From assembly GCA_943736015.1 (NCBI GenBank), contig OX031061.1, positions 12,223,290 through 12,287,289 on the forward strand: DNA of 64,000 nucleotides. The letters are read 5' to 3'. Position 1 is the first letter of the stretch; each line of letters starts with the position of its first letter. The notes beneath the pieces are model-generated. The model did not search any database and was not told the DNA's origin. It was given only the letters and a program-made list of their open reading frames with translations. Positions 2,058-63,602 of the stretch are shown here, one piece after another. This stretch comes from Tridacna crocea (lineage: Eukaryota > Mollusca > Bivalvia > Cardiida > Cardiidae). A program made the translations under genes and the position numbers.

Positions 2058-2291
2058 GCTTTACCAAACGACGAAATTTTAGCCGTGTCCAAATTGAAAG
2101 CATTTGCAGACGACAAAATAAACGTGGCTCAAAAACTGAAATTTGCCTTCGAAAAGAATGATTAGAAAAAAACATTGTGGAAAAAGGAGAAAATGCTGGT
2201 TACCAGCATTTTCTCCTTTCTCCATAATGTTTTCAGAAGGCTACTTTCTCTGGGTCGTAAAACCCAGGGAATTTCTCGGTAAAAAGTTTTA
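2058..2291 (+). mobile_element. Family A MITE, degenerate copy
   Basis: It starts CTTTACCAAACGACGAAATT, has the hallmark GCATTTGCAGACGACAAAAT and the central hairpin (GAGAAAATGCTGG / CCAGCATTTTCTCC), and ends near TCTCGGTAAAAAG. The flanking TTAA is no longer intact. Confidence 0.8.
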
Positions 2292-2314
2292 CCAAGCAGC
2301 TAATCACATAAATA

Positions 2315-2496
2315 TGGGTTCATAAAATGCATTTTGTCTTACAATCGACTGAATAATGAAGAAGACTCGTCCTTGGACATGCAGAAAACTAAATCAAATA
2401 CTGGCAAACCGTATCGACCCATGTCAGCCTGCGTGGACTGTGCAGTCTGACATGAATCGGTACTTTTTGCAGATGCCTTATACCCCCTTTTTTTCA
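2315..2496 (+). mobile_element. Family D element, partial
   Basis: It carries the D palindromic core (CGACCCATGTCAGCCTGCG ... CAGTCTGACATGAATCGG) and the right-side block TTTTTGCAGATGC followed by ACCCCCTTTTTTT. The left terminal repeat is missing. Confidence 0.7.
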
Positions 2497-2581
2497 TAAA
2501 TCATGGCACATATGGCTTCGCAGAAAGTTGAAATATCTATGTTTGCTTTTAAACATATATAGTATCTGACATGAGTTGGCT

Positions 2582-2689
2582 TTTGAGATAAAAATTTATT
2601 AAACGAGTCTACAACAATGTTATTAACCGAGCCTTTGGCGAGCTTAATAACATTTTTGTGGACGAGTTTTATGATTTTTTACCTCAAAC
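2582..2689. repeat. Solitary imperfect palindrome of about 108 bp
   Basis: The arms TTTGAGATAAAAATTTATTA... and ...ATGATTTTTTACCTCAAA pair through CGAGTCTACAACAATGTTAT / ATAACATTTTTGTGGACGAG around a centre at GAGCCTTTGGCGAGC. It is not part of the other families and no second copy is seen here. Confidence 0.7.
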
Positions 2690-3364
2690 ACCAATGAGTG
2701 TCAGATTCTTTTTATCACATTAATGTATAAAAAAGAATTATTGTGTTAAACAAGGGGCATACATGTATCATGTGTAGTGAAATTTACATGAAGCCTGTGT
2801 GCTTACTTTGACAGCTACATATACATTACGAACGAAAGGATAGTTTCGAAGAAACTCGCATATTGATTTTGTTTTGAGTCTACAAATGATTAAATTAACA
2901 AATTTATCACGATTAAGAGTTTTGATCATTAATTTCTATCAGGAACCTTGGTCAGTAATGCTTTAAAATAAAGCGTATAATTTCAGCGTATTGACCAAAT
3001 ACAGCACTATTTTCTTATCTCAAACGTGTGCGGAACAATACAATTCGTAATGGTCACAGTGTATAACATTGAAAACAAGGAGAGTTATGTGATAAATATA
3101 TGTTTGCTTTTATACATAATAATTTCCAAAGCCTTCTTAATCAGAGTGACTAAAACTAGGCATAATTCTAAATGCAGAAAATTTACCAAAATAAAAAATT
3201 ACTGACCCATGACAAATTATCGTTTGGTAAAGAATTAATCATTTGGTTATTGGCTTAAGTATTGATGTCCGACATCAACCTTAATAATAATAATAATAAT
3301 GATAGTAATCATATAATATTCATTCATTCATTCATTCATTTACTTTAATACCTCCTGATGGAGA
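2690..3364. other. AT-rich intergenic DNA with two microsatellites
   Basis: No exon is supported. A short (ATA)n run lies at 3281-3300 and an (ATTC)n run at about 3319-3340. Confidence 0.5.
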
Positions 3365-3368
3365 TTAA

Positions 3369-3592
3369 CTCTTTACCAAACAACAAAATTTTAGACTGGT
3401 TCTTCTAATTGAAAGCGCTTGCAGACAACAAAATAAACATAACTCAAAAATTAGAAATTATTTTCAGCAGGGTAGAAAACATTGTGGGAAAAGGAGAAAA
3501 TGCTGGTTACCAGCATTTTCTCCTTTTCCCACAATGTTTCCGAAAGGTTTCTTTCTCAAGGTCGTAAAAACCAGGGATTGTTTGGGAAAGGG
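3369..3592 (+). mobile_element. Family A MITE, intact termini
   Basis: It is flanked by TTAA at 3365-3368 and 3593-3596. It begins CTCTTTACCAAACAAC and ends TTTGGGAAAGG. The central hairpin arms (3479-3541) are perfect for about 30 bp each around GGTTACC. Confidence 0.92.
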
Positions 3593-3599
3593 TTAATTT

Positions 3600-4551
3600 A
3601 ATTGAATAAATTACAATAAACAATATAAGAACATGCCACAAATCATTCAAAGTAATAAATTCATCCTTGCAGGATGGAAACACTGCACATAGTCTCTATT
3701 TCTGAATTAAAGTCAGTCTGTGAAAAAAAAGAGATCATTACTGTATATAAGGACCGTGGAAGCATTGATAAACGTAACATGCTGCTTTTTTCATGAACCA
3801 GGATGCTTCGTCATTTGACATAACCGAACTGCTGTTGGCACCCAACACCAAAACGAGAAATTTATCTTTTGGAGCAAGCACCAGTTCAGAAAAACTATCA
3901 TAGCTTAATTTGCTATAAAGACAACTGAATAGGCGACCTTTTATGCCACCGATAAACGGGCATTCTACCAACTTGTGCTTAATTTCGTCTAGTACTATAC
4001 GATTGCAGAATTACATACAACTGCCGTATGGGAGGGAACAGTCACACATGTGTAGCTTAGCCAAAATGCTAATTTATGTGAGGCTGTCCCCTTATCGTAC
4101 AGAGAATACAAGGAACAAGGACTGATCGACTTGTGCAACTGACTGAAACGAGAAAAGTCTGCAGCTTTCAAACGGTTAAGGAACTCATTAGTTTCCACAA
4201 AGTTGACAGAGCTATGCACAAATTGCCGCCAGACACGCTTTTGTGACAAATATCATTTATCGTTAACGTAATATTTAGCAGGAAGTTTAAATTATATTTG
4301 ATCAGGAGGCTACAAATATCGGGTATAAATCCACGTTTAGATTTGACTGAGCTATACAAATAGTGAAATAATTTTTTTTAAAAAGATTTGCTTACATATC
4401 GAACTGTAGTCAAGATTCAAAATCTTAAACAAAAACATCAGTTTCCTGTTATCTACCAAGGCTGTGATGCGATTGAGACCTAGCACTGATTCTACCATGT
4501 CTGATCGTACTCTTACATGAAATCCTTGTATTTTGTATAATGCTGATGATG

Positions 4552-4584
<33 letters not shown>

Positions 4585-5889: not shown

Positions 5890-6425
5890 TGGTCAAGATA
5901 ACTCAGAGCCCTTGGGTAGTACATATGAAACCAAGGAAATACATGAATATTTTAGCTGTCGCCGTGATATGACTGCAATAGTGTTGATAGCGCCGTAAAA
6001 CACCGTTTGAAATAAACGAAAGAATAATTGGACTATGATAACCAACAATCCTAAATTGCTTCCCTAGTCCAATTTCAAATTCAGAAAGTCATACATGTAC
6101 TAATTCTGATTGGCTAAACATTTCGGTTTTAGCAAATCATAAACTAAAACTAGTATCAAGAATTGTTGGCAAATACATGCCTTGCTGGTTCCAAATCCAT
6201 CAGCGATTCTGAATCATAAATTTTAAAACTTTTAAATTTCAAAGACCAGCCATTTGAATGGCCGAGATATTTTGTCTCGGTCAATCAAATTGCTTGTCTA
6301 TGGAATCTAGAATTAGTATAATAATTTCAAAGTCTGTTCGAAGGGTGTTAACGGACTTCGGATAACATCAGTTATACACAGTTCTCATTAATATAAAAAA
6401 ATAGTTTTAGTGCGACACAATTACT
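5890..6425. other. Intergenic, no gene seen
   Basis: A small inverted motif (GGCCGAGATATTTTGTCTCGGTC, 6261-6283) is present. No exon is supported. Confidence 0.4.
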
Positions 6426-6431
6426 TTTTGC

Positions 6432-6496
6432 AGACAGTGTAGATCAAGATCAGAGTGTCCAGAAGATGAAGTATGATCTTGGACCTACATTGTCCG
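6432..6496. repeat. Family C palindrome, copy 2
   Basis: Ends GACAGTGTAGATCAAGATC and GATCTTGGACCTACATTGTC pair around a diverged centre. Confidence 0.65.
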
Positions 6497-6837
6497 TAAG
6501 GAGAGGTTTTCTCCAAAAGAAAAGCCCTAACTTTGAAATAACAGTTGGGTTTTTAGTGCATGCTGGAAAATCTCATTTGAGTTTTTAGCAGGTAAAAGGT
6601 TAACAAAAATGGTGAAGCAGAAACTAAAAGTATGCCTGTTTTTACACCATCCTTTTTACACCATCGTGACTTGTATTATTTACCCCATTATTATTATTTT
6701 TTCTAATCGTCTCGTTGGCATATTGAATAGATATCACATGAAATTTGAGCAAATCTTGGGTCTTATATTATTAGCTGTACGTTGAGGTGGCGACATGATT
6801 CACCACAGCCGTTAACAAGTTTCCAAGTCCCCTGTCA

Positions 6838-8045: not shown

Positions 8046-8154
8046 TTTTAACCTCTAGGTAGCTAAGCGCGACTCACTGACCTTTTGCAAACAGTGTAGA
8101 TCCATGATCAGACTGCACAAAACGTGCAGTCTGATCTTGGATCTACACTGTCCG
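8046..8154. mobile_element. Family C element, near-complete copy 3
   Basis: It begins at TTAACCTCTAGGTAGC and includes GCGACTCACTGACCTTTTGC. The inner hairpin (8091-8152) pairs GTGTAGATCCATGATCAGAC with GTCTGATCTTGGATCTACAC. This copy shows that C has longer outer arms than the inner hairpin alone. Confidence 0.75.
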
Positions 8155-8204
8155 ATTACGAGATATCATTTCCCAAAAAGTAACTTTGAAATAGTTATAC
8201 ACGT

Positions 8205-8420
8205 ATTACGTTTTTTACCACGAATTGAAAAAAACAATTTTTTGTAGTTACTTAACCTATAAGGGTCAAAGGCTGAATAGCCATTGAAAAAAAAAAAAAT
8301 GTGGGAAATGGAAAAAGTGTTGATAACCAGCATTTTCTCCTTTTCCAACAATGTTCCTATCCATTTAAAGACAAAATCGAACGTTTGAGCCAAAGCTTAA
8401 TTTTTCATCTGCAAATGATT
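8205..8420 (-). mobile_element. Family A MITE, degenerate
   Basis: The central hairpin is GTGGGAAATGGAAAAAGTG / AGCATTTTCTCCTTTTCCAAC, with CATCTGCAAATG to its right, so the orientation is minus. The ends are eroded. Confidence 0.65.
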
Positions 8421-8607
8421 ACATTATAAGAAAGTCTGAAATTGGGTCTTCTGTTCAAGACTTAAAAAGTAAGCTATCGACCAATCAGAGAAGACTCCAT
8501 CCTTGTCTTGCTAAATGACTAAAATGAAATTCATAAATCGATTGAAAAAAATGGCAAATATTGCCATTTCAAATCTATGTGTTTGGGAAATGATATCTGT
8601 TTATAAG

Positions 8608-8710
8608 ACGGTGTAGATCAAAGATCAGACTGCACGTTCTGTGCATTCTCATCTTGATCTACACTGTCCGCAAAAGGCCAGTAAGTCGTAATTTGCAGCC
8701 TAGGTGTTAA
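8608..8710. mobile_element. Family C element, copy 4 (right side complete)
   Basis: The inner hairpin is followed by ACTGTCCGCAAAAGGCCAGT and ends CCTAGGTGTTAA. This mirrors the left end of copy 3 and defines terminal inverted repeats around TTAAC.CCTAGG. Confidence 0.7.
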
Positions 8711-9963: not shown

Positions 9964-10665
9964 AAAGCATCGTTTTTGACAAAAGGAAAATACTTTGGAT
10001 CAGTTCATTGATATAATCACGTTGCTACAGCAAGGAATAAACCATAGCTATTATAAGCCAATCGAAAGCTACTAACATGACGTCATTCGGACCTACTTCC
10101 ACTTCACAACGCATAAACAACTAACCAGTGGGATCGTACATGTAAATTTACTATCTAAGAACTAACCAATCGGATAGCTTCTTTGAATGACGTACCGCTG
10201 ATAGACCCCTTTCCTCTGTTGGCAACCTTATTCTGTCTTTGTGAGGAGTAAAATTTCAATGAAATAAATTCCTTTGAATCATCAAGTGTTTAAACAAAAT
10301 TTTCTCTTTCAAAGAAATATTTTTCTTTTATCAAAGTCGTGCTTGACTTTATGATTAATGACTAGGTTATTGTTACGCATCGGCGTGGCCGAGTTTTGAT
10401 TCCGGAGACCCGTGAAAAGAAAAAGATAAATCGGATGAAATCACAATAGATGTGTCATTTCGAAGTAGTTGATGTACCGATGTATATAGCCTTGGTTCCA
10501 TAATTCCAGGCTGATCACTTCTTTCCTTAAATACGAGTATGATCAGATTTTACTACGTCAAAAATGACAATAACATGATCTATAACCGTTTTAACATGCA
10601 AAGAATTTTAACTTCTTTTGGTCGTCACGTTGCTTAACGTTCAGCAATTATTCATAAATATTTAA
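9964..10665. other. Intergenic, no gene seen
   Basis: Unique-looking AT-rich sequence. No exon with consistent splice signals or homology was recognised. Confidence 0.4.
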
Positions 10666-10667
10666 CC

Positions 10668-10880
10668 CTTTACCGCTCACTTGAAACGACTCTGAAAATC
10701 AAGCTTTTAAAAACATCGAGAGGAGAGGGGAAATTACAACCGAAAACCGGCACTTTTTTTTCATTTTATCACAATGTTTCTAACCTATCAAGAACAAATT
10801 TCGTCGCTAATTTGGGCCACCCTGAATTTGTCATCTGTATGAATCAGTGCTTTCAATTTCAACTTAGTCTGAAATTTCTT
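10668..10880 (-). mobile_element. Family A MITE, heavily decayed
   Basis: TTTAACCCTTTACCGCTCAC at the left and CACAATGTTTCTAACCTATC in the middle identify it. The left hairpin arm is mostly lost. Confidence 0.5.
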
Positions 10881-10889
10881 TGTCAGGTA

Positions 10890-11585
10890 AAGAATAAACG
10901 CTTATCGCAATGAATTGTTATCAAAATCACTTACCTCCGTCATTATTAGATTTGAAATATTTACCTTATATATTCCTATTTATTTTCCTCGAAAGAATTT
11001 CCTTCAACTATACATTTTTTTCCAAAACTGAATAACACCATGATAAAATTAACTTGACAGGGAGAATCCCCACTGTCCTAGAGTGCATCGGACGTGTTCG
11101 TGATTTTCTGAGAACACGGACCAAGATCTGTGTAACTGTAGGCCTAAACGATATATTGTTGTCTAACAAAGGAATAGGGTGTATCTCAATATTGACGAGT
11201 TGGCAATCATTTTGCTTTCATGTTTGCCGACAAGCTGAACGTACATTCCGGTTACCCGGGATTAATGAAAGACAAGCGTTAATGTCAATGGACCCTTAGA
11301 TCGTTTATTACGCCTGTCTCTTTTGAAGACAAGGCAGACGATTCTATAGTCTGCACAGAATATGCAATCTTATGTCGGACAAGCTATATTGTATTAACCC
11401 GACCAAAACAGCCCAGGGTAAGGTTGCAATAATTAAGCATTTTGCCCGAGATGTAAAATGCCATTTTCATCAATCTAGCACTCTAGTATAAGGGTTAACA
11501 GAGTCATAGATTACAAGAATCGTATAAACGAAGAACACCTTCCGACGTTCCTTATAGGACCTAAGAAGTCAACCGTCAAATGATG
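10890..11585. other. Intergenic, no gene seen
   Basis: One 81-codon frame (11054-11299) has no recognisable domain and is not called. Confidence 0.4.
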
Positions 11586-11589: not shown

Positions 11590-12692
11590 TTGGTTATTCT
11601 TGATAGGATGGTAAACATTGCGCAAAACGGAGAAAATGCTCGTTGCCAGTATTTTCTCATGTTCCTGCATGCTTTCAAAATACCCTTCCCTTTCTAAAAA
11701 GCCCCATTCTTTAAGGTCATTAAAACCAAGCACATGTATTATAATCTAAATGTTAAATCTCCGTTTTGAACATTGAAAGTCGTTTGTTTTGAAAGTCTTT
11801 TTCAGTCTTGCTAAAGTATATTTCAAATAAAATGGTAAACAAATAAAAAGAAAAGCCTTTTAACTGAACGACACTGAAATTTTGACAACCTCAAGGGAAA
11901 AAAAAGTTTCAAAATACTTTTGGAAAAGGAAAAAAAACGCTAGTCACGAGTATTTTCTCTTTTTACCACTATGTTTTGTACTTTTTCCCAGCCAAACGGC
12001 ACATTTTCAGCTGCTCTTAACTTATTATCTGCTAATTGCTTTAATGTAGAAGGCCCAAATTTTTTGTTATTTTCTGAAGGAAAAACATTTGGGAAAGTCA
12101 AACAAAAGGTTGATTATCATTATTTGCTACTTTTCCTACAATGCTTTGAAAAGCCTCTTCTTCAACATTGTTGAAAGTCAGTATTGTGATCTGAAAGGCT
12201 GAATCTCAGTTTCTATACTCTAAAATGTACCTTTCTAGAAACTCTTTGCTCTCTCGATAAAATTATCCATGGAGTAAACTGGTACTGACTTTCAAGAAAT
12301 TAATCATCTCATTACAGAGTTACAGTTTTAGATCTATCAAAATTGATTGCATTTTCAAGCAAAAACTATTCTTTAATCCTTTACCATACCATATCAAGTA
12401 CAGTTTTAACAACCCTGAGAAAGAGGCCATTTAAAAACTTAATTTTGAAAAGGAGAAACTTTCTTGGCTCTTTACACGAAGAAAAAAAATTCAGACTTTC
12501 CAAAATTGAATGCATTTTCAGGTAGCAACTTTTTGATCTGGCATCATTGATGGAACCTGTATGAAATAGGATGGAAGACATTTTAGGAAAAGGAAAAAAT
12601 GTCAATTAGCACCGTATTCTCCTTTTCAGACCAAAAGTTCTCAAGCCTTCCTCCTAGACCTTTTAAACTCATTATTGGGCTAATAGAGGGTT
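11590..12692. mobile_element. Cluster of three decayed family A fragments
   Basis: Hairpin-like remnants lie at about 11605-11690 (GGAGAAAATGCTCG / AGTATTTTCTC), 11910-11975 (CGCTAGTCACGAGTATTTTC) and 12555-12660 (TTTTAGGAAAAGGAAAAAATG). All have lost TTAA termini and part of an arm, so they look older than the clean copies. Confidence 0.5.
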
Positions 12693-14701: not shown

Positions 14702-14930
14702 ACTCTTTACCAAAAGACAAAATTCAAGACTTTAATAATTAAAGAATAAAAAAAAAACTGCAAACGACAAATTTGAGAATATACCAAATTCTGAAATTTG
14801 TCGATGGAAAGTTGGAAAATATTGTTCGAAAAAGGAAAGAAATGCTGGTTACCACCAATTTATCCTTTTTCTACAGTTGTTTTCAAAACCTCCTTTTTTG
14901 GGGTCTTTAAAACTTGGGATTATGAAGGTT
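14701..14930 (+). mobile_element. Family A MITE interrupted by family B
   Basis: Its TTAA and first bases lie left of the B element (near 14277-14296). The rest continues here with CCAAAAGACAAAATTCAAGAC, a decayed hairpin at 14820-14885 and the right block GGGTCTTTAAAACTTGGGATT. Confidence 0.7.
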
Positions 14931-14936
14931 TCAACT

Positions 14937-15168
14937 CTTTACCTAACGACAAAATTTAGACTAGTTCAAATTAAAATAATTTGCAGACAACATATTGAAT
15001 TCACCTGAAATAGTGGAAATTGTCTGTGAAATGTAGAAAACATCGTGAGAAAAAAAAAAGAGAAGAAAATGCTGGTTACCAGCATTTTCTTCTTTTTTTT
15101 TTTCTCACAATGTTTTCAAAAGCTCTTTTTTTTCGGGTTTGTAAAAGCTCGAGATTGTGCGATAAAAT
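14937..15168 (+). mobile_element. Family A MITE
   Basis: Starts AACTCTTTACCTAACGAC. The hairpin is AGAAGAAAATGCTGG / CCAGCATTTTCTTCT with lengthened A and T tracts, and the arms have co-varied. The right end is GATTGTGCGATAAAA. Confidence 0.8.
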
Positions 15169-15282
15169 TATTTTTTTAAATGTAAGTGATGTATGGCCAA
15201 TAAACGATAATAATGAATAAACGACAGTTCTGACAAACCACCGGGAATACAATATGTTATCGTTGCACTCTAGCTATTAACC

Positions 15283-15514: not shown

Positions 15515-15519
15515 TAAAT

Positions 15520-16343: not shown

Positions 16344-16401
16344 TTTAATGCATTTTGTCGCCTGCATTGTGTACTTTTAGCAGCTACTGGGTCTTTAACC
16401 C

Positions 16402-20403: not shown

Positions 20404-20407
20404 TTAA

Positions 20408-21763: not shown

Positions 21764-21769
21764 TTAAGA

Positions 21770-48900: not shown

Positions 48901-51900
48901 TTAACAGTAGAACAAAAAAAGTAGTTCAAGATTTTCGGCAGGCGTAAAATATTCACTATTACGGGGAAATAATCCCCCCCCCCCCGCTTCATTTACGACA
49001 TTTCTTTGCCCATGACAATTCTAAAAATTGACACATGAAATCATTGACTTAAACCCAAAAATAAAAGAAGTTTTCACCAGAAATTCAGAGTACAAATAAA
49101 TTTTGAACGATTTGCACTTTAGTGAGAAAAAATGTGGAAAACGGAGTAATTGAAAATAACCTCTCATTTGTAAAAATATGTGGATTGTTAAAATTAGTTT
49201 TTTAGGAAAACAAACTATTTTGGTCCAGAAAAAACTGTAATTCTAATTTGGTCTGGGCAGATTCCGGACCTGCCTAGATTCTAATCTGGCCTACGACATA
49301 TACATCCAGTATATTCAACCATGTGACAATTTGTTTTGTATTGTAAATTTTTGACAATGAGCTTATGTACTTAATTAAAGAATAAAATGTTATTTCTTTT
49401 ATCCCCGTTAGTTGCCTATTATTCTTCAGAAGGAAAAGGGTGCCCTCATTGCAGTTGAAAGCACCTGGAGAGGAAAATCAACATCGATTAAATGAGTAAA
49501 TTTGTCCTTATCACAGTAGGAAAACATTGTGGGAAAAAAGACAAGATTCTGGTTACCAGCATTTTGTCTTTTTCCCATGATGTTTTCAAAAGGTTTAATC
49601 AGATTGAATTCTTTATACAGATGTCACTACCAAGGCGTCGCCCCACCAGTTGAACGCACTGAGGAGATGTTTGACCCAGGGGCAAAGTATCATATACCTG
49701 GGGACTACCCTTATATCAGGTAAATCTTATGTATGTTTTAGTGGTGTCTGTGGGTTGAAAATGCTTAATAGTTCAGGTATTTAACTCCGTTTTTGTCAGT
49801 ATTTCGATAACGGCAAGGTGGCAAACGAGACCTATCCTTGCATTGCTTGAGCTTGAAATTTGAATTAAACCGTTTAAAGGTATAAAATTATTATGAAGAG
49901 AACAGTATGTTACTTTATGGTCCGTCTGAGCGTAAGTGGCTGTCAGAAAAATATATTTTAAAACTCGGTTAAAAGTTGTCAAGTGGCTCTGTCTTTCCTT
50001 TGCTGTCATTTTAGTTGGTTTTGACGATATTTTTTTCTGCAAGCTACTAATTGTCTGGGCCCATAAGTGTTTTTTCATTTGCAGCATGACACTTGATGCA
50101 TGATATATGAGATTTTACTGATGACTAGCAAAATTGACAGGAAATGCAGATAGTTTTATTTGTACGAGTTATCTGCTCGTTATTTGGCATCACCAAAACT
50201 CGTATTATTCGGTGACCAGTTTCATTCAGTTGAACAGGTTAGAATCAATATCAAAAGGCGGTATGATTCAGCGATTAGGCTCCCCTTTGTGCTTTTTCAG
50301 TGTGTCATATCATTGCTATATGCCGCTCACCAAATCCGCTTTTCAGGATTTCCAGTCCTTTGATTTTTAACAAAAGCATGCCCATCCTCCAACCCTTTAC
50401 CAAACAATCCCTTGTTTTCACTAACCTGAAGGAAACCCCTTTTGACAATATCGAAGGAAAAGGAGAAAATGCTGGTAACCAGCATCTCACCTTTTCTCAC
50501 AATGTTTTCTGTCCTTCCCAGAATAAGCTGCAAATTTTGAGTCACAATAACTTTGTTGTCTGCAAACACTTTCAATTTGGACAAGTCTATTTTTTTGTCG
50601 TTTTGTTGAAGAGTTAACGTGGAATCTCATTACAGAGAACTAACTTGTTCTGTCATGTTTTCCAGGTATTTTGTGAGCTATGTCACGCAGTTCCAGTGGC
50701 ACAAAGCTCTGTGTGAAGTGAGCGGCCATCGGGGACCCCTGCACAGATGTAGCATCTTCAAGAACAGGGCGGCAGGTGATAGGCTCGGGTATAAGTTTTG
50801 TTTATATTTGCAATAACACAGATTGTTTGAGATCAGTTTTCGTTGACCAATCATATTTTGTTTGCAGTTGCCGTTGATATAACTCTTTACAAAACGACAA
50901 TATTTTAGGTTTGTCCAAAATCGAAAGCATTTGCAGACGACAAAATAAAAGTGGCCGAAAATGTGAAATTTGTTTTGGAAAGGATAGAAAACATTATGGG
51001 AAAAGGAGAAAATGCTGGTTACCAGCATTTTCTCCTTTTTCCACAATGTTTTCAAAAGGCTTCTTTTTCAGGGTCGTCAAAAGTAGGGATTGTATGATAA
51101 TTGCTTAATTACTTAATAAGACAACCGAGTTTCGAAATGGTCTAAATTTTACTATAAAATATATCAAAATGGTCTTAAAATGTCTATATTTGTTTTTGAA
51201 GGACAAAAAGCATTGTAGAGGGAGGAATATGATTGTACTTTTTGTACTGCCGTTAAATAATAATTAGTGTTACCGAAACAAAACTAAAGGTACACCAGTG
51301 AGTCTTTGAACGGGCTCTTCAGTTACAAATATTTCTGATTTTGTAAATTAACGGAATTTTTACCTGTCGAGTGAATTATGCGTATGTGTCCTATCTGTTT
51401 TCTATTGCAGCTCCATGTTACGTATGGGTTCGTCCCGACCCTGGAGCGAAGCTATGAGGGTTTTAACACGTGGTACATCAGGGGAAACTGACAAGCTTAG
51501 TACACGTGCACTTCTAGATTACTTCAAACCTCTGCAGGTATGTGAACCATGGACCCTCAAAAGAGAGCTTAATCTTTTACCAAACAATCCCTGGTTTTAT
51601 AGCCCTGAGATAGAAGCCTTTTGAAAACATTGTGGGAAAAGGAGAAAATGCTGGTAACCAGCATTTTCTCCTTTTCCCACAATGTTTTTTACCATGCTGG
51701 AAACAAATTTCAATTTTTTGGTCATGTTTATTTTGTCGTCTGCAAGCGCGGTCAATTTGGACTGGTCCAAAATTTTATAGTTTGGGAAAGGGTTAATGCA
51801 TGCAAGAAATGCATCATACCAAGATAGTCATAATTGTGAATCCATAAAAATCATTTCGTCTAACACACGACTGGTAATGAGGTAGAATGTTTCTTAAACA

Positions 51901-54900
51901 TGCACAGAGTTGACCAATTTGACATAGGGACAATAAACGAAACTTTGATTATTTGAAAGAAAAAGAGAAATATTATTTAAATACTGGCATGAAAGTTAAC
52001 CTTCAGAGCAAATGAATAACTTTTTGCTTGAAGGGAGAGTACTCATGAAAAGTTGCTATTAATTATGTATTGGTGGTCTAGGATATGTCAGTAGTAACGT
52101 CCCTTGACAGTGGGTTGCATCAAGGCTAGAGAGAGAAACCATGTAAATATATCGAATAGAATTAAGTTTGTACCTGAAAACAATGATTTTGAAATATATT
52201 TGGTCGTTAACATTAAATGCCTAACATTACAATAAATTATTTCGATCTATAAATATCCATGCCCTATCAAATGGAGTAGTTTCAATCATGGAGTGGACAA
52301 GCAACGGGACGAACTGGGTTTGGAACGAAAAAGCCCAGGACCAAGCTATCGGTAGACAAACTTTGTATCATTGTGCGAACAGAAGGCTACAAGAGAAAAA
52401 GAAGACGCAAGAGCGTCAAAGGTCGCCCGAAAATGAATTGTTTTTTCCATTATTAAACAAATATGCAGAGATATGAGTACGAGTACACACGTTTGAAATC
52501 ATACATACAGTAGTCACTTTATAGTAACAAATATATACATTGTAATATATTTCCATTGCGTACTTTCTTTTCCATTGCACCAGTCCCGCACAAAGGAAAT
52601 TTAAAGGGTGTTAACATTTGTACTTAAAAGCATAAAGAAATTCCAATAAATTTCTTCAATTAATTACCCATAAGAAAAAATTTGATAGTATTGGCGTATC
52701 ATGCGATTAAGCTTGGGGAGGGGAACTATATAAGCAATATGCTTTCGTCCCGATCCTTTCTCATTTATTTCTTGTATTATCTATGTATAACCAATACAAA
52801 ATACAGTTTAACAAGATATGCAAGACATGAGAACTGAGACAAAAATGCATGTATATCAGTATAATTTGGAAAAAATAAGTGTGTGTCGGCATTACATGAA
52901 ATACTTCATGTTTTCCGAAGGAATAATGGAAAAGATAATTACAAATTACGTTGTTTACGTTGAAAAACCAAAAACCGTTGACATACAAGAATTCAAACAT
53001 CACCAAAACTATCTGCTGCTGAGCGCGCCTAAATATGGTATTGCAAATGTTGTGCATCAGGACCAGACAGCACGCAGTGTGCATTCTGATCACTAATCCA
53101 CAAAGTCTGAAAATTAACGGTTCGAACTACTCAATCTTCAGCTTTTCTTTCCTGAAAAATTTTCAGTTACATTCATAAATACGAGGAAAGTCTGATAACA
53201 TTTCGAATATCTGAAATTAAAAAAAAAAAAGATTTCATGTACATTTGTACAAATAATCAACTGCGAATGATAAAAAATATACATGTATACTGATAATTGC
53301 AACCAAATTCTGTAGGTGAAGTTTCTGAGGACAGTGTAGATTAAGATCAGTCTTACAAGAAATGCTCTCTGATCCTAGATCTACACTGTCCAATACACTG
53401 ATCAACATGCTGAACTACGTACATGTATAATGAATTCATATATAACCTGACAAAATAAGTAATAATTACGGATATTGCTAAACATGTAAGCTGGCATGTA
53501 AACTGATTAATGTAACCAAAGCCAGTCAGTGAAATATCTGAGGACGGTGTAGATCAAGATCAGACTTACCAAAATTACAATCTGATCCTAGATTCACGCA
53601 ATCTAATGTATATAAGATGATACATGTGATCAAAGCCGACCAGTGAAATATCTGAAGAGGGTGTAGATCAAGATCAGACTTACCAAAATTGAAGTCTTAT
53701 CCTAGATTCACGCAGTCTAATGCATGTAAGCTGATATTTAAATCAAGTTATTATCCATTTTAAAATTCAATCTGAACTTTAAGACCTGTGTTGGGTGCAT
53801 TATATTGTACTTGTTTGAACTTGGTAATTTTTCAATTTCCCCTTCTGAGATTACCTGCTTAAACATGGAAGGAAATATTGCTACAAATATATATTTTTAA
53901 CAGTAAAAACTTTATTTTTCAATATTCCTGTAGATATACCCTAGGAAAGATATATGAGTACAAATACACACGTTTGAAATCATACATATTTACTTTATAT
54001 AGTAACAAATGTATAATGTCTATTGCGTACTTTCTTTTCCATTGCGCCAGTCCCGCACAAAGGAAATTTAACCCTTTCCCAAACAATCCCTGGTTTTTAC
54101 GGATCTAAAATAGTAGTCTTTTGAAAACATTGTAGGAAAAGAAGAAAATGCTTGTAACCAGCATTTTCTGCTTTTCCCACAATGTTTTCTACCCTATTAT
54201 AGACAGAAATCATCTTTTCTGTAAGAGTTGAAATTTCGTCCGCTAATGCTTTCAATTTGGTCTAGTCCAAAAGTTTGTCGTTTGGAAAGGGTTAAAAGGT
54301 TTTAACATTTGTACTTATAATCATAAAGAAATTCTGATCATTTTCTTCAATTAACTACCCATAAGAAAATACATTAAAGACCTGTAACACTTTAGGTACA
54401 ATATACTGTTGGTAAATTTTTCATTTCGCCATCTAGGAATACGTGCATAAAGGAAAAATATCACTACAAGTACATTTTTTTCAGCGGTACAAAAACATAA
54501 TTTTTGGTTTTTACTTGTAAATTACCTTTAATGGGTAAAAAAATAACATGTTTCAAATCATTATTGTTATTCTATTTAATAAACAGGCATGATATATTTC
54601 CATGCGTATTTTCTTTTCCATTCCGTCCATTGCTCTAAAATATTTCCATTCCGCTCTTTAGGCCTACCGGTAAAGAGTCATTATCTCCCGCTAGATGGCA
54701 TTCTATAAAACTCGAATCGTCGAAGAATATGACATGCGCAGACAACGGTAAAGAGTAGGAGCAGTTCTGCATTTTCATTGGTTCCTAAGATCATGTGACT
54801 GGACGAGTTCATTTGCGTTAAAAATAGATGCATTCTGCACAAGAACATTAATTGTTTCACAAAATGTTTCGCAGCAGACCGTTAATAATTCTTTCACGAT

Positions 54901-56845: not shown

Positions 56846-57030
56846 TATTCGGGTAGCAATCGGTGTCATGCTGCTTATAGACAATAGTATACTCAGAATT
56901 ATTCAACTGGAGATCTTCTCTTGTATCTATGATACAGATTTGTAAATACCGTGTCTGTCTGTCTGTCTGACGAATATGTACATTGCTGTTGTTATGTTTG
57001 CTTTTTTATGATGTTTAACATTATTTTTAA

Positions 57031-57253
57031 CTCTTTACCACACAATGACGACTTTTAACACCCCTGAAAGAGAAGGCTTTTGAAAGCACTGTGGGAAAAG
57101 ATGAAAATGCTGGTAACCAACATGTTCTCCTCTTTTTTCACAATTTTTTCTTCCCTTTCAAAGAAAATTGATTTCATATGAGCCATATTAAAACTGTCAT
57201 CAGCAAATGCTTTAAATTCGGACGGGTCTAAAACCTTGTGGTGTGGTAAAGGG
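57031..57253 (-). mobile_element. Family A MITE, intact, 3' of ACE
   Basis: TTAA at 57027-57030 and 57254-57257. Ends CTCTTTACCACACAATGACG and TGTGGTGTGGTAAAGGG. The arms have several mismatches (GGTAACCAACATGTTCTCC). Confidence 0.9.
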
Positions 57254-57264
57254 TTAAAGTAATT

Positions 57265-57544: not shown

Positions 57545-57849
57545 ATTATTAGTCTTGCAACAAAAGAGCAATGTCGAGGAGATTTATTTAGTCTGATCTT
57601 GATCTCCGCCTCCCACGAAAGCAATACCAATCACAAGTAGTACCATATATGTGTTTTTCCCGATTTTCTTATATGTCCTTTTTCTGCAATATTTTCTAAG
57701 CATCGATAGATACGCTATATGAATACTCATTCTGGCCAGGATACCGAGGAATCCGTTGATCAATTCGACGTAGTTACGGAATCGGCCGAATTATGACGAG
57801 TGTGACCTATACCTTTCTCAGTCATTAATTTTATACTTGTGCCAGTAAC

Positions 57850-58000
57850 TCTATCCCAAGCGACAAAATAATGGACTTGTCCATTCAAAAAGGATATGGG
57901 GAAAAAGTAAGATTTGTAGGCGAAACAGTAGCAAAAATGTGGGAAAAGGAGCATGTTCTCCTTTTCTCACATTTTAATACCTATCTCGTCAGGGCCGTTA
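57850..58000 (+). mobile_element. Family A MITE, shortened
   Basis: TCTATCCCAAGCGACAAAAT at left. The hairpin is reduced to GTGGGAAAAGGAGCATG / TCTCCTTTTCTCAC. Confidence 0.65.
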
Positions 58001-58310: not shown

Positions 58311-58342
58311 CGTTAAAACAAGGAATTAATGATAAAGATTTA

Positions 58343-58594
58343 ATCCTTTATCACACAATGCGGAATTTTAAATGCCACGAGGAAGAAGCCTTTTGAAAAC
58401 ATTGTTGGAAAAGGAGAAAACGCTGGTAACCAGCATTTTCACCTTTATCCACAATCTTTTCTACTATTTAAGAACAAGTACTATTTTTATTTACTTTATT
58501 TGTTTTATCCTTTTTTTAATATTTAATTATTGTCTCTCTTTTTTTTTTCCTTCAGTACGTATGAGTCTAAAATTTTTCCAGTGTGGTAAAGGTT
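58343..58594 (-). mobile_element. Family A MITE, with T-rich expansion
   Basis: CCTTTATCACACAATGCGG at left and TCCAGTGTGGTAAAGG at right, good hairpin at 58396-58455. The inner right side is replaced by a T-rich tract. Confidence 0.75.
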
Positions 58595-58598
58595 TCAC

Positions 58599-58824
58599 CC
58601 TTAATCAAACGACGAAATGTTAGACTTGTCCAAATTGAGAGCACTTGCAGACGACAAACTAAAAGTGACTGAAAATTTAAAATTTGAAAATTGTGAAGGG
58701 TAGAAAACATTGTGAGAAAAGGAGGAAATGCTGGTAACCAGCATTTTCTCCTTTTCCCACGATGTTTTCTAAAGAATTCTTTCTCAGGGTCGTCAAAACT
58801 ATAGATTGTGTGGTAATGGATTGA
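58599..58824 (+). mobile_element. Family A MITE directly after the previous copy
   Basis: CCCTTAATCAAACGACGAAA at left, GTGTGGTAATGG at right, hairpin at 58706-58765. Confidence 0.88.
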
Positions 58825-59003: not shown

Positions 59004-59229
59004 CCTATTACCTACCACATGACAATATTTTAGGCTTGCCTAAATCGAAAGCATTTGCAGACGACAAAATAAAAGTGACTGAAAATTTGAAATTTTGCTT
59101 TGTGAAAGGTACAAAACATTTTTAGAAATGGAAAAAATGCTGGTTACCAGCATTTTCTCCTTTTCCCAAAATGTTTTCTAAAGGCTTCTTCCTTAGGGTC
59201 GTCAGAAGAAGGGATTGTGTGGTAATGGG
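59004..59229 (+). mobile_element. Family A MITE, intact termini
   Basis: TTAA at 59000-59003 and 59230-59233. The left end reads CCTATTACCTACCACATGAC and the right end GTGTGGTAATGGG. The left arm is decayed (TTTTTAGAAATGGAAAAAAT). Confidence 0.88.
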
Positions 59230-59239
59230 TTAATCGTAT

Positions 59240-59475: not shown

Positions 59476-59499
59476 TGTGTGAGTACGGCCCACTTTAAG

Positions 59500-59672
59500 A
59501 AAATTTTAAAACATAGTGGGAAAAGGAGAAAATGCTGGTTACCAGCATTTTCTCCTTTTCCCACTGTGTTCTACCTTACCAAACACAAATTTCATCATTT
59601 CAGCCATATCTTATTTGTCGTCTGCAAATTCTTTGAATTTCAAAGAATCTAAAGTTTTGTCGTCCGCTAAAA
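59500..59672 (-). mobile_element. Family A MITE, left end lost
   Basis: Hairpin from ACATAGTGGGAAAAGG to CCTTTTCCCACTGTGT, then TTTGTCGTCTGCAAATTC and TTTTGTCGTCCGCTAAAAG. Confidence 0.8.
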
Positions 59673-59949
59673 GAAATAAAATCACCCTACGTGTGTTATG
59701 TGGACATTTATGTTATACCCGTTTGTAAAGTAGATCTTCTTTACATAATGTCATGTAAACATACAATTTCTGTTATTAACGTGTTTTTCGTTATTATAAC
59801 ATTAAATCTAATGGAATTAATACGAGCAGGTAATATTTTCCTTTTTTCCACTCTGTTCACGTGACTCATTATCAATGGACAAAATTAAAGAATCTATACA
59901 CTAATAGAAGAATTTTTACAAACGATAAATTCAACGTCACTTTACACTT

Positions 59950-60110
59950 AGCCATACAGTCCCAACTTCCAACTACTCTTGGGGGTTGACGAATTTTCAA
60001 AACATTGTGGGAAAAGGAGGAAATGCTGGTAACCAACATTTTCCTCTTATTGCCAAAATGTTTTCAAATGAATCGTGAAAACTCTTAATTGTGGTAGATC
60101 TATAAAGAGT
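59950..60110 (-). mobile_element. Family A MITE, degenerate
   Basis: AAACATTGTGGGAAAAGGAGG and CCAACATTTTCCTC, with GGTAGATCTATAAAGAGTTAA at the right. Confidence 0.65.
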
Positions 60111-60195: not shown

Positions 60196-60242
60196 AGCAA
60201 TAGCAGTAACTGTTGTGATCGGATCATCTCGGTTCTCGACCA

Positions 60243-60445
60243 CAATATTTTTGGCTTGACTGATATGAAAGTATTTGCCTTCAGCAATTTTGAAGACAAA
60301 TCTCGAAAAATCATGAAAGGGAAAGGAAAGAGTTGAAAACATCATGGAAAAAGGAGAAAATGCTGGTAACCAGCATTTTCTCCTTTTCCCATTATGTTTT
60401 CAAAGACTTCATGTTAAGAATCTGGATTGTTTGGAAGAGTATTAT
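60243..60445 (+). mobile_element. Family A MITE, degenerate flanks, intact hairpin
   Basis: Flanks are diverged (TTTTTGGCTTGACTGATATG), but the hairpin 60336-60402 remains almost perfect. Confidence 0.75.
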
Positions 60446-62072: not shown

Positions 62073-62224
62073 CTGACCGTCTATAAAACTACGCTTATTA
62101 CTTATGCACATACACTAAATCACATATGAATCATACTTTGTGAAAATGTGCTTGAATAATTTCCAAAATTTTAGACTCTGGTCAACTTGAGCATTTCGCA
62201 TTCCGACCTCGGGCTATCCATTTT

Positions 62225-62445
62225 AACCCTTTATCTGATCTGCCAATTTGAGGCTCTTCCATTTCAGCAGCAAAAAAAGATATGATGTCAAAAATATCGA
62301 CAAATGAGGGTACAAATATCTGACTGAGTGGAAAACATTGTGGGAAAAGGAGAAATTGCTCGTTACGAGCAATTTCTCCTTTTCCCACAATGTTTTCAAA
62401 ATCTGTCTGTCGTTGATGGGTCAAAATGAGTATCTGTGGAGTAAT
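62225..62445 (+). mobile_element. Family A MITE, subfamily 2 hairpin
   Basis: TTAACCCTTTATCTGATCTG at left. The hairpin at 62335-62398 is perfect with GAGAAATTGCTCG / CGAGCAATTTCTC. The flanks differ from other copies, so this is a separate lineage. Confidence 0.85.
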
Positions 62446-62560
62446 GTTGCCATGTTATGGAACAAAACTGCCGCATGGTTCGCCCAGTTTTTAGACGAAA
62501 TGGATCCAAAGTAGTTTTATATCGTGCGACAATCTGCATGGTGTAACGATCTAAGAAGAC

Positions 62561-62596
62561 GGACTAGCCCTTTTTATCCAAGACTACGGCTCATAT
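62561..62596 (+). mobile_element. Probable family D terminal remnant before Ly6 exon
   Basis: CTAGCCCTTTTTATCC and GACTACGGCTCATAT follow the D right end (AGCCCCCTTTTCACAGAGCA, then TGGCTCATAT) with several changes. It ends 11 bp before the exon acceptor. Confidence 0.45.
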
Positions 62597-62607
62597 CATT
62601 TTTACAG

Positions 62608-62751
62608 ATAACTTCAGCTGCTACACGTGCACATATACGAGATCTGCTGATCCATCAGTAGGCTATGAGTGTATAACAAGTGTTGGCATGGTATACCAAG
62701 TCGATTGTGAACCACCAGACGTATGTAAAACAGTTACCTTATTTCAGACCA
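62608..62751 (+). CDS. Ly6/uPAR-type protein, first visible domain exon
   Basis: 144 nt, phase 1/1. Acceptor ATTTTTACAG, donor CCA|GTAAGT (perfect consensus). It encodes the first half of a three-finger domain: NFSCYTCTYTRSADPSVGYE, then a Cys, and DCEPPDVCKTVT. CYTC at the start is typical of Ly6/uPAR domains, which are secreted or GPI-linked. The signal-peptide exon upstream was not found. The phase-1 exon boundaries are typical of this family. Confidence 0.85.
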
Positions 62752-62879
62752 GTAAGTTGAACAATGTTGTCTTTATGAAACGATCTGGTGCTTTATGTTC
62801 CAATATCCCATGCCGGATAGCTGCAGCCAATGAGCCCAACCGCGGTAGCTAAATCGTTCGTATACAAGACTTGAGAACA

Positions 62880-63077
62880 TGGTCCGTATTCATCAAAAAT
62901 TCTTAAGTACATTCTTGGTCTTATTCTTCAGAATTTTGTCAATGTGAAAGTAACTGATCTTCTAATTGGCTAAACCAAATGGTTTAGCCAATCAGAAGAT
63001 CTGTTACTTTCACAGTCGGGAAATCTTGAAGAATAAGACCAAGAACGCTCTTAAGAATGGTTGGTGAATACGGACCT
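62880..63077. mobile_element. Family F foldback element, near-perfect
   Basis: GGTCCGTATTCATCAAAAAT at left and GGTTGGTGAATACGGACC at right. The centre is GGCTAAACCAAATGGTTTAGCC. It lies in the Ly6 intron. Confidence 0.9.
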
Positions 63078-63084
63078 CGGAGTT

Positions 63085-63172
63085 CGCTAGAATCCAATGA
63101 CACAATCCTCGGAAACCATCAACCTCTTGTTCTTAAGACCTGTACGCTACCGACTGAACTACTCGGCTGCAT
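63085..63172 (-). repeat. tRNA-like SINE head
   Basis: CTTGTTCTTAAGACCTGTACGC and ACCGACTGAACTACTCGGCTG read as an inverted tRNA-like head. Confidence 0.45.
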
Positions 63173-63384
63173 AGTATATACCCATAATATACAAATACAC
63201 AAATACGAAATTTACCGCACATACACAGATTTAGATTTGGACAGTTTTTCTTCGAAAAGGAGAAATAAATCAACTGCACTTGCATTGATCCTTTTCTAAA
63301 CATGCCTTCTACACTATTGAACCATTACTTTTTCCTGTCATCAACATGGTTTTCCTATATAAATTTCGATAGTGTAGGGCTGAT

Positions 63385-63602
63385 TGGAATAGCCCCTATT
63401 CTTTTTTTAAAGAAAGAAAGCTTTTGAAAAAAAATGTGTTAAAAAGCAGAAAATGATAGTTACCAGCATTTTTTTTTCCCGATAATAATTCTTAAACTCT
63501 TCAAAGTAAATATTCATCTTTTGTGCCACATATAATTTGTCATCTGCAAATGTTTTAAATTTGGACAAGTCCAAAATTGTGTAGTTTGGTACAGATTATT
63601 TA
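63385..63602 (-). mobile_element. Family A MITE, degenerate, in Ly6 intron
   Basis: Remnant hairpin (AGCAGAAAATGATAGTTACC, CCAGCATTTTTTTTTCCC), TTTGTCATCTGCAAATG and GTAGTTTGGTACAG, then a TTTAA. Confidence 0.65.

Follow-up and report, generated by a model that had tools for sequence, protein, structure and literature searches.

A TTAA-flanked MITE of Tridacna with a conserved palindromic core and candidate piggyBac partners in the same genome

Hallmarks of the piggyBac superfamily are short TIRs of about 12-19 bp that start with CCY; the TTAA target site is also duplicated by other superfamilies, e.g. Kolobok and Sola3. Among the piggyBac MITEs described so far are the CMITEs of the coral Acropora (Wang et al. 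2010, PMC2872659), which are short, duplicate TTAA and mostly have CCCTTT termini. CMITEs are about 100 bp long, and their number in A. millepora has been estimated at 1,600; from family to family the internal region is better conserved than the TIRs, and one family has its TIR in common with an autonomous piggyBac, the interior otherwise being hardly shared. The text of the paper does not contain the words "palindrom", "hairpin" or "compensat".

Copies in the window and in the genome

By means of a profile built from 14 copies, we found 67 non-overlapping MITE copies in the window, i.e. the whole 64-kb stretch of DNA that was analysed (Table 1). These amount to 1.05 copies per kb and 20.1% of the bases, and 46 of the 67 cover at least 180 model columns. 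The same profile gave no match in two block-shuffled windows and none in the reversed window; a refined profile found 68 copies, 39 on the plus and 29 on the minus strand. The element measures about 221 bp between the TTAAs, in agreement with an earlier note on this DNA, which had reported about 60 TTAA-flanked MITEs of about 220 bp. It is short, uniform and probably non-coding, exists in many copies, and has TIRs and a target-site duplication, as is required of a MITE.

The earlier note had also proposed a local burst. In 20 random 5-kb stretches of the genome, 92 copies per 100 kb were found; the density in the window is therefore near the genome average, and the cluster is no local burst. 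Extrapolation from these 20 stretches gives a total of about 10^6 copies, corresponding to 15% of the 1.05-Gb genome. Genome-wide, the exact 13-mer TTAACCCTTTACC occurs 66,634 + 66,849 times, compared with 28 + 20 occurrences of the reversed pattern. ORFs of at least 130 aa number only four within the 64-kb window.

Table 1. MITE copies in the window. Basis "profile" denotes a search with the profile from 14 window copies; for family F, matches of at least 47 bits are given and weaker ones left out.
Feature	Positions	Strand	Basis
MITE copy	2056..2283	+	profile
MITE copy, TTAA both ends	3365..3596	+	profile
MITE copy (partial)	8294..8464	-	profile
MITE copy, diverged	10662..10894	-	profile
MITE fragment with core	11594..11683	+	profile
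MITE copy	11879..12072	-	profile
MITE fragment	12373..12460	-	profile
MITE copy	12468..12654	+	profile
MITE copy	14702..14924	+	profile
MITE copy	14932..15164	+	profile
MITE copy	15277..15500	-	profile
MITE fragment	15517..15648	+	profile
MITE copy	16395..16586	+	profile
MITE fragment	16727..16818	-	profile
MITE copy	17741..17959	-	profile
MITE fragment	19615..19727	-	profile
MITE fragment	19901..20007	-	profile
MITE copy, TTAA both ends	20404..20632	+	profile
MITE copy	21280..21482	+	profile
MITE copy, TTAA both ends	21539..21767	-	profile
MITE copy, TTAA both ends	23042..23270	+	profile
MITE fragment	23401..23531	+	profile
MITE copy	24652..24862	+	profile
MITE, A arm on both sides of core (A-core-A', to 25669)	25391..25576	+	
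MITE fragment	26275..26365	-	profile
MITE fragment	26544..26634	+	profile
MITE copy, TTAA both ends	26719..26949	+	profile
MITE copy	27078..27319	+	profile
MITE copy, TTAA both ends	27317..27545	-	profile
MITE copy, TTAA both ends; perfect palindrome core 27951-28017	27844..28072	+	profile
MITE copy, TTAA both ends	28280..28509	+	profile
MITE copy; C-type right core arm left	29459..29647	+	profile
MITE copy	31168..31386	+	profile
MITE copy, subfamily C (core ..AAATTGCTCGTTACGAGCAATTT..), TTAA both ends	32358..32585	-	
MITE copy, TTAA both ends	32804..33032	+	profile
MITE fragment	33951..34021	-	profile
MITE copy	34352..34589	+	profile
MITE fragment	34783..34909	-	profile
MITE copy	35780..36008	+	profile
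MITE copy	38452..38676	+	profile
MITE copy, subfamily C, TTAA both ends	40119..40346	+	
MITE copy	40770..40955	+	profile
MITE copy	41391..41618	-	profile
MITE fragment	41618..41684	+	profile
MITE fragment with core	42158..42316	+	profile
MITE fragment	44229..44313	-	profile
MITE copy	44533..44749	+	profile
MITE copy, TTAA both ends	45736..45963	+	profile
MITE fragment, core nearly intact, adjoins probable gene exon	46515..46652	-	profile
MITE fragment	47246..47365	-	profile
MITE fragment	47950..48111	-	profile
MITE fragment; core pairs 19 and 22 show mirrored changes	49445..49596	+	profile
MITE copy	50391..50617	-	profile
MITE copy	50880..51106	+	profile
MITE copy	51570..51796	-	profile
MITE copy	54068..54295	-	profile
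MITE fragment	56415..56475	+	profile
MITE copy, B-end type D, TTAA both ends	57027..57257	-	profile
MITE fragment	57846..58000	+	profile
MITE copy	58341..58592	-	profile
MITE copy	58595..58822	+	profile
MITE copy, TTAA both ends	59013..59233	+	profile
MITE fragment with core	59498..59670	-	profile
MITE fragment with core	59944..60067	-	profile
MITE copy	60235..60436	+	profile
MITE copy, C-type core at 62331-62397	62223..62446	+	profile
MITE copy	63411..63595	-	profile
Family F MITE (different palindrome; length and position similar)	6409..6598	-	
Family F MITE	8049..8232	-	
Family F MITE	8500..8709	+	
Family F MITE (partial)	27650..27757	-	
Family F MITE	47759..47949	+	

Ends, insertion sites and candidate autonomous partners

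The MITE ends read CYC[A/T]TTACC..., and of the 32 copies in the window that extend from one end of the model to the other, 18 have TTAA at most 11 bases from each of their two ends, compared with about 0.5% expected by chance; this bears out the CYCATTACC-type termini with TTAA on both sides that had been claimed before. Among end-to-end copies from random genome stretches, TTAA is found at both ends in 22 of 34 (chance again about 0.5%), and for one copy an exact TTAA empty site is present in the genome. The element has the TTAA target-site duplication of the piggyBac superfamily. Two outcomes had been named in advance as speaking against this assignment, namely flanking TTAA no more frequent than chance and termini matching a non-piggyBac transposase source; since TTAA flanks are much commoner than chance predicts and an exact empty site is known for one copy, neither has come about, the partner comparison having covered piggyBac families only.

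The same genome contains two candidate autonomous piggyBac lineages, both with open DDE_Tnp_1_7 frames. In lineage 1, four copies (C5, C3, C15, C18) have TTAA at both ends and differing flanks, two further ones (C9, C10) have one imperfect end, and homology among independent copies ends at the TTAA-bounded termini. The transposase, an open frame of 486 aa with 297 bits to PF13843, is 100% (rounded) identical in protein in five genomic copies; it matches piggyBat (9c0f) with an E-value of 9e-40, the aspartate motifs lining up in the alignment, and, among the matches listed, 6x67 with 4e-36. Lineage 2 is a single locus without stops, 80% identical to lineage 1 in protein.

Over 38-39 bp, both lineages have B-ends that match that of the MITE. 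Of the seven MITE end types, the one closest to lineage 1 agrees with it at 29/39 positions, and none of 2,000 shuffles was as good; five further piggyBac families from this genome, the ends of one being tentative, reach 19/39 at best. In addition, the autonomous B-ends carry further inward repeats of a motif resembling the MITE B-end. The A-ends match weakly (16/39), shuffles being as good in 3 of 300 cases for lineage 2 and in 19 of 300 for lineage 1. The MITE B-ends mostly start with CCC and many of the A-ends with CTC; CTC ends are also found in both autonomous lineages. The earlier note had suggested a search for an autonomous piggyBac whose terminal 15-20 bp agree with those of the MITE: at the B-end this search was successful, with 34/38 for lineage 2 including TTAA (30/39 without it), and at the A-end the agreement is weak. 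These comparisons point to an autonomous partner with a piggyBac DDE/D transposase and shared ends, clearly so at the B-end and weakly at the A-end. The B-ends of same-genome piggyBac elements, the TTAA flanks and the empty site support the non-autonomous piggyBac-type family that had been proposed, which would be moved by a piggyBac-type transposase encoded elsewhere in the genome.

On a partner comparison that covered piggyBac families, it is very improbable that the elements are members of a different superfamily with TTAA targets, Kolobok or Sola3, and owe their likeness to piggyBac to chance. Such an assignment would accord with the TTAA duplication of those superfamilies, with the many A-ends that start with CTC and with the weak A-end match to piggyBac elements, but not with a B-end common to the MITE and the piggyBac elements of the same genome. 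In the accessible part of a survey of piggyBac elements (PMC10813416), CCCTT and CCCAT are among the published termini, which likewise speaks against Kolobok or Sola3.

The palindromic core

The main-group consensus contains a perfect palindrome of 67 bp, which lies off-centre at model columns 108-174 of 229. Of the 62 bp hairpin in the middle of the element that had been described before, the palindrome stands, the length and the central position do not; flagging such a core as unusual for piggyBac MITEs was right. No match to the palindrome was found in the ends of the autonomous elements, the parts that were compared; it is thus not needed for transposition as such. In the consensus sequences the palindrome is more conserved between MITE lineages than the flanks or the termini: main group and subfamily E are identical at 57/67 positions of the core, 34/87 of the A arm, 17/35 of the B arm, and 10/16 and 11/16 of the TIRs.

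Between lineages the two palindrome arms have changed together, whereas individual copies, at the one pair counted genome-wide, have mostly changed one arm. In the core of subfamily E, four of five changed pairs are mirrored and one is one-sided; in one copy of the distant family F, whose core has the same length and a sequence that differs by about 45%, 14 of 18 are mirrored and four one-sided. Among 160 cores we counted 122 mirrored double changes, compared with a shuffle mean of 27.8 and a maximum of 44 in 300 shuffles. Rare mirrored types in the sample (at most two copies) number 28 versus 14.4 expected, none of 2,000 null draws being as high; for types seen once, the values are 18 versus 10.5 for mirrored and 17 versus 10.6 for non-mirrored doubles. 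Pair 29, the sole pair counted genome-wide, was selected for its lack of mirrored variants in the sample; it has 2,097 + 2,143 (4,240) one-sided and 110 mirrored changes, the latter being 4.5-fold above the 24.5 expected under independence. A non-partner control double gave 90 versus 34.3 (2.6-fold), which leaves a residual of about 1.7-fold; both expectations are our own arithmetic.

Divergence of the core is about half that of the flanks at all flank distances, the closest pairs included. Within tight clusters, private changes are 17/1070 in the core versus 78/2201, a deficit also seen outside CpG-like sites; for group E the values are 4.7% versus 5.3%, core and flank decaying about equally.

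From these comparisons we consider it likely that the MITEs were moved by this piggyBac clade and that pairing of the palindrome was selected during amplification. The transposase would recognise the shared end, excise the MITE and reinsert it at other TTAA sites, and the MITE may have reached about 10^6 copies during a long residence of the clade. Elements with an unpaired palindrome would have amplified less, which would make the palindrome a cis-acting trait for amplification, probably by forming a hairpin or cruciform in the DNA or by offering a protein a site with two-fold symmetry. The selection on pairing, which we infer, is unproven and fits some results poorly: uniform post-insertion decay predicts neither the core/flank ratio of about 0.5 nor the fewer private core changes, a deficit not shown by group E, and the excess of rare mirrored doubles would also fit arm-to-arm copying. 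The lack of the palindrome in the autonomous ends, the weak A-end match and the many A-ends that start with CTC instead of CCC likewise count against the reading as a whole. More tentative, quite possible if somewhat short of probable, is the specific proposal that a selected cis-acting palindrome, absent from the partners' ends, raises amplification to about 10^6 copies, with pairing conserved more than sequence and hairpin or cruciform DNA acting in replication or excision.

Instead of selection, templated correction from arm to arm, by hairpin-templated repair or template switching during replication, could keep the palindrome perfect and generate mirrored changes as a by-product. We regard this as unlikely, although the residual excess at pair 29, the rare mirrored types and the existence of copies with two A or two B arms (one each of 165) would be in line with it: thousands of single-arm changes persist at pair 29, once-seen mirrored doubles are not clearly above non-mirrored ones, and templated correction alone leaves the conservation of the core sequence between lineages unexplained. 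Selection of the palindrome as RNA, in the form of a transcribed hairpin that would be either a precursor of small RNAs or a structured RNA, has a low probability. No Rfam family reached its gathering score in the window, and many of the mirrored changes are transversions, which are impossible via a G-U intermediate, even though the RNA of an inverted repeat with 67 perfectly matched nt would fold and two-arm changes would keep the fold. Nor is there an excess of single changes by which one strand retains G-U pairs (172 versus 154), a test that is weak because most changes probably arose after insertion.

Similarly improbable is a core that is not under selection but forms a module of younger age or one subject to continual homogenisation, such as a gene conversion hot spot between copies. 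The halved core divergence and the fewer private core changes within tight clusters would agree with such a module; however, pure palindrome types number 183,553 and 9,565 genome-wide and mixed-arm forms only 4 and 6 (10 in total), which indicates that one-arm conversion tracts between these types are rare. The roughly equal decay of core and flank in group E argues in the same direction, as do the arm combinations around one core (A-B 95, AE-BE 9, A-BE 1), main and E arms being seldom joined.

Significance and comparison with known systems

It is an open question why some few MITE families expand massively and the majority remain small. Here, one genome unites a MITE, two candidate source transposases (several near-identical copies exist of one of them) and an internal trait seemingly kept during amplification. 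The copy number offers natural statistical power for comparing core changes tolerated in copies with those passed on by sources, and the hypothesis that the palindrome boosts MITE amplification is open to a direct transposition assay.

Lineage 1 matches the transposases of piggyBat and 6x67/6x68 across 433 and 464 residues. The solved transposase PDB 6x67 is the piggyBac of the cabbage-looper moth, and we know of no palindrome in the piggyBat or 6x67/6x68 elements. The piggyBac elements of small animal genomes (PMC10813416) have TTAA duplication and CCCTT or CCCAT termini, as does the Tridacna MITE apart from its many CTC A-ends; in its accessible part, this survey mines transposase-bearing copies, and a million-copy MITE is undescribed there. 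In Daphnia, the autonomous element Pokey shares the genome with MITEs of its own, mPok (PMC4912750), an arrangement like the one proposed here; insertion is reported at an rDNA site and elsewhere, and the summary of that work does not mention a palindromic core. Judged by their description in the accessible part of PMC2872659, the coral CMITEs are the nearest precedent. Like these, the Tridacna MITE duplicates TTAA and has an interior that surpasses the TIRs in conservation, and, as one CMITE family does, it has an end in common with piggyBac elements that are candidate autonomous partners; unlike these, again by description, it is about 221 bp long, is present in about 10^6 copies, and has as its conserved interior a palindrome whose arms have changed together.

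Abundance of the MITE in the window and in the genome

A profile built from 14 window copies detected 67 copies of the MITE, an element of about 221 bp, in the 64-kb window, i.e. 1.05 per kb and 20.1% of the bases; the same profile found no copy in two block-shuffled windows and none in the reversed window. With a refined profile, 68 window copies were obtained (39 on the plus and 29 on the minus strand; 12,989 bases in sum), so that the roughly 60 dense, TTAA-flanked elements claimed in the earlier note were recovered. The typical copy has the A-end CTC[A/T]TTACCAAACGACAAAATTTTAG and the B-end CCC[A/T]TTACCACACAATCCCTACTTTTGACG. Among end-to-end copies, TTAA lies at most 11 bases from both ends in 18 of 32 from the window and in 22 of 34 from random stretches, where chance predicts about 0.5%; the asserted excess of flanking TTAA thus holds.

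The window covers positions 12223290-12287289 of contig C6; the genome comprises 1,048,827,098 bases in 31 contigs. Sixteen contigs have lengths of 40-77 Mb, C14 and C16 show matches beyond 40 Mb, and C19 measures 57 kb, which makes a total of 18 large contigs likely. Random 10-kb places were drawn in three sets of 20 on 14 of the likely 18 large contigs, and the first 5 kb were used of ten places from set 1, of the first ten of set 2, and of none from set 3. On average, each of these 20 stretches carries 4.60 copies (SE 0.50), equal to 92 per 100 kb and covering 15.5% of the bases; the local burst that had been proposed for the window is not supported by this sample. Extrapolation by arithmetic from these stretches gives about 965,000 copies in the genome (SE about 105,000). 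An exact 31-mer of the core occurs 91,934 + 91,619 times genome-wide, its reversed controls 0 times. For the window and the random stretches together, 36 occurrences compare with 28.7 expected from the genome count; with the window's 18 taken off, 18 fall in the random stretches, against about 17.5 expected. Compared with expectations calculated from the genome counts, the window is somewhat enriched in the 31-mer (18 versus 11.2) and poor in a 13-mer (5 versus 8.1).

Conservation and paired changes of the palindrome core

The hairpin described earlier is present; it is, however, a palindrome of 67 bp at model columns 108-174 of 229, and not one of 62 bp in the middle. Copies of the main group (78 of 79, duplicates removed) differ from their own consensus by 6% in the core, by 20-21% in the flanking arms, and by 15-16% in the TIRs. 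As finding copies via the core could bias its conservation, copies were also collected by the A arm alone; for 117 of these 122, the differences were 8.7% (core), 18.7% (A arm), and 20.0% (B arm). Between the consensus sequences of the main group and subfamily E, 57/67 core positions are identical, compared with 34/87 in the A arm, 17/35 in the B arm, and 10/16 and 11/16 in the TIRs. Judged by these consensus sequences, the interior is conserved between MITE lineages, with the proviso that the E copies were found via a core-containing model, which could miss unrelated cores on similar flanks.

Changes in the two core arms were analyzed for 160 of 202 core matches, which were near full length and had at most 4 gaps. 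In the locus set as a whole, the overlapping loci L006-L008 and the near-identical loci L025-L029 were thinned. The 160 cores contain 122 mirrored doubles, in which both arms changed so that pairing stays, alongside 51 doubles of other kinds. When right arms are shuffled between copies, 27.8 mirrored doubles are expected (SD 4.8, maximum 44 of 300 shuffles). In subfamily C, the mirrored changes affect pairs 26 and 31, and subfamily E has four mirrored pairs and a single one-sided change. Genome-wide, the exact main 31-mer was counted 183,553 times and the C type 9,565 times; the two mixed-arm forms, comprising only those with pairs 26 and 31 both switched on one arm, were found 4 and 6 times.

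Constant copying of one arm onto the other would leave mirrored changes in individual copies as well. At pair 29 (C-G to T-A), picked since the 160-core sample held no mirrored variant there, the change is found on the left arm only in 2,097 genomic copies, on the right arm only in 2,143, and mirrored in 110, and independence predicts 24.5 of the latter. As a control, a double change at neighbouring sites that are not partners occurs 90 times versus 34.3 expected from 2,097 and 3,006; provided that differences in copy age explain this 2.6-fold excess, the mirrored excess surpasses it about 1.7-fold. In the local sample, types present in at most two copies show 28 mirrored doubles versus 14.4 expected (0 of 2,000) and 23 other doubles versus 17.5; for types seen once, the values are 18 versus 10.5 (22 of 2,000) and 17 versus 10.6. 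Copying between arms may occur to some extent, or there may be small mirrored lineages. Most single-arm changes remain uncopied and amplified lineages differ mostly by mirrored changes, which we read as selection for pairing while the elements amplify, possibly with a weak contribution of copying.

The low core divergence could also mean that the core is protected after insertion, or that subfamilies were not separated. In line with this, the core/flank distance ratio is near 0.5 down to the closest pairs, and in tight clusters private changes are fewer in the core (17/1070 versus 78/2201 at the strictest and 76/3404 versus 201/6962 at the loosest threshold), a deficit that persists without CpG-like sites; group E, in contrast, has hardly any core gap (25/535 versus 67/1256). 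The low ratio and the fewer private core changes count against selection during amplification. A G-U asymmetry that would indicate pairing at the RNA level was absent (172 versus 154), and Rfam gave nothing at gathering score within the window; an RNA function of the palindrome was set aside on these grounds. Two further proposals were rejected. Core arms could be hidden TIRs: A resemblance of the CCTTTTCC-CACAATG arm to one B-end type (p 0.0055) was the top result among 20 comparisons, and the arm does not match the autonomous ends. An origin of the fold-back through arm swapping is at odds with only one A-A and one B-B form among 165 classified cores.

piggyBac elements and the ends of the MITE

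The piggyBac domain PF13843 has 118 genomic matches, many in open frames. Four piggyBac families with clear ends and one with tentative ends were delineated, all of them unlike the MITE ends. Ends such as CCCTTTATATAC and CCCTWGTCATGC belong to these other families (loci L013-L019, L021-L023, L030, L032), in which several copies are more than 99% identical, suggesting recent activity. At locus L031, a MITE is inserted in a copy of the CCCTTTATATA piggyBac; L033, L015, and L013 present the insertion-free version of this site with a single TTAA.

Lineage 1 (L025-L029, L034, L037) is a further family, set apart from those five. Homology between its copies on contigs C5 and C10 breaks off at TTAA-CCCATTACCGTTCAATAACGCCTTTTGACGCCCCT and TTAA-CTCATTACCACTCAGAGAGG, the C10 copy lacking a few terminal bases of the former end. 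The copies on C3, C15, and C18 have the same ends with TTAA on both sides and differing flanks; on C9, TTGATT replaces TTAA at the A-end, and on C17 the B-end is present and no A-end was found within the fetched stretch. The C5 element measures 7,203 bp, both TTAAs counted. The 486-aa frame of lineage 1 scores 297 bits against DDE_Tnp_1_7 and matches piggyBat (9c0f) as well as 6x67; three aspartate motifs, which we take to be catalytic, line up in the alignment with 9c0f. Five genomic copies of the protein are 100% (rounded) identical and two more 98% and 96%; relatives range down to 57% or less, and many of them contain stops. Lineage 2 is one stop-free locus (L024), 80% identical to lineage 1 in protein; the element on C7 spans 6.4 kb with the ends TTAACTCTTTCCCACACAATCCCGACTTTTTACGACCC and TTAACTCTTTCCCACACAGACAGG, borders set by motifs and by alignment to lineage 1.

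At its B-end, the MITE agrees with lineage 2 at 34/38 positions with TTAA and 30/39 without, and with lineage 1 at 29/39, the highest value among seven MITE end types, which none of 2,000 shuffles equalled; in the other five families, at most 19/39 positions match. The A-end match to the autonomous elements is weak (16/39; 3 of 300 shuffles do as well for lineage 2 and 19 of 300 for lineage 1). An autonomous piggyBac sharing terminal bases, which the earlier note had envisaged, is thus found for the B-end, and by sequence the MITE is a piggyBac element. Both autonomous B-ends run on with repeats of the same motif, plausible transposase-binding sites. Seven MITE matches (E 0.001 or better) lie within the lineage 1 element, about as many as genome density predicts, which indicates that the lineage has probably lived alongside the MITEs.

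Related palindromes and known systems

A covariance search identified family F, elements of about 207 bp with TTAA-CCC ends, whose palindrome has about the length and position of that in the MITE and is followed by the same AAAAGG. One copy (L041), itself 29/33 palindromic, differs from the main core by 14 mirrored and 4 one-sided changes among 33 pairs. Its left arm is identical at 18/33 positions, a value reached by only 34 of 20,000 shuffles, which makes common descent of both cores likely but not certain. Six further family F matches in the window (22-33 bits) lie outside the parts list. Because the search reports most palindromes on both strands, its alignment A3 served just to find divergent cores and was kept out of the counts; alignment A2, picked for variety and with one A1 row left out (insertion), contributed no statistics. 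Among 114 palindromes in 164 kb, 35 fall outside both the MITE core (lenient cut) and family F; shuffled sequence contained 0.

Location of individual features
Sequence	Positions	Feature
Window	9018-9082	Other palindromic repeat family
Window	15036-15106	MITE core; arms seem to hold A/T runs at corresponding places, perhaps a hairpin-templated expansion
Window	19321-19385	Other palindromic repeat family
Window	20212-20276	Other palindromic repeat family
Window	25391-25669	A-core-A' MITE; A arm at each side of the core, palindrome lengthened
Window	31756-31819	Other palindromic repeat family
Window	34737-35489	Simple repeat array yielding long low-complexity ORFs on both strands
Window	37662-37726	Other palindromic repeat family
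Window	39594-39657	Other palindromic repeat family
Window	46290-46632	ORF passing directly into a MITE core (46566-46632); presumably like an angiotensin-converting-enzyme-like peptidase exon
Window	48682-48851	Further palindromic repeat
Window	62947-63010	Other palindromic repeat family
L031	844-1070	MITE inserted in piggyBac copy
L047	3258-3324	B-core-B form
Lineage 1 element (L049/L027/L050)	2890-3258 and 4210-5670	May be a putative acidic first exon and an intron with nested MITE
L073 (C31, 29,009 bp)	First 3 kb	ORFs like nad4L, nad3, and nad5 (labels assigned by eye), all on one strand; C31 is probably the mitochondrial genome, rather large

Published piggyBac termini include CCCTT and CCCAT (PMC10813416), and in bivalves MITEs left unclassified are described as filling a considerable share of the genome (PMC10294476). 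Searches of an open-access library turned up no report of a million-copy palindrome MITE like this one. Coral CMITEs are piggyBac MITEs whose 75-base interior is better conserved from family to family than their TIRs are; the authors suggested a role of this interior in transposition and put the copy number in A. millepora at about 1,600, and their text contains none of the words palindrom, hairpin, or compensat (PMC2872659). Features of the Tridacna crocea MITE that go beyond these coral elements are its scale, the resolved palindrome, the paired changes, and the presence of autonomous elements that match it.
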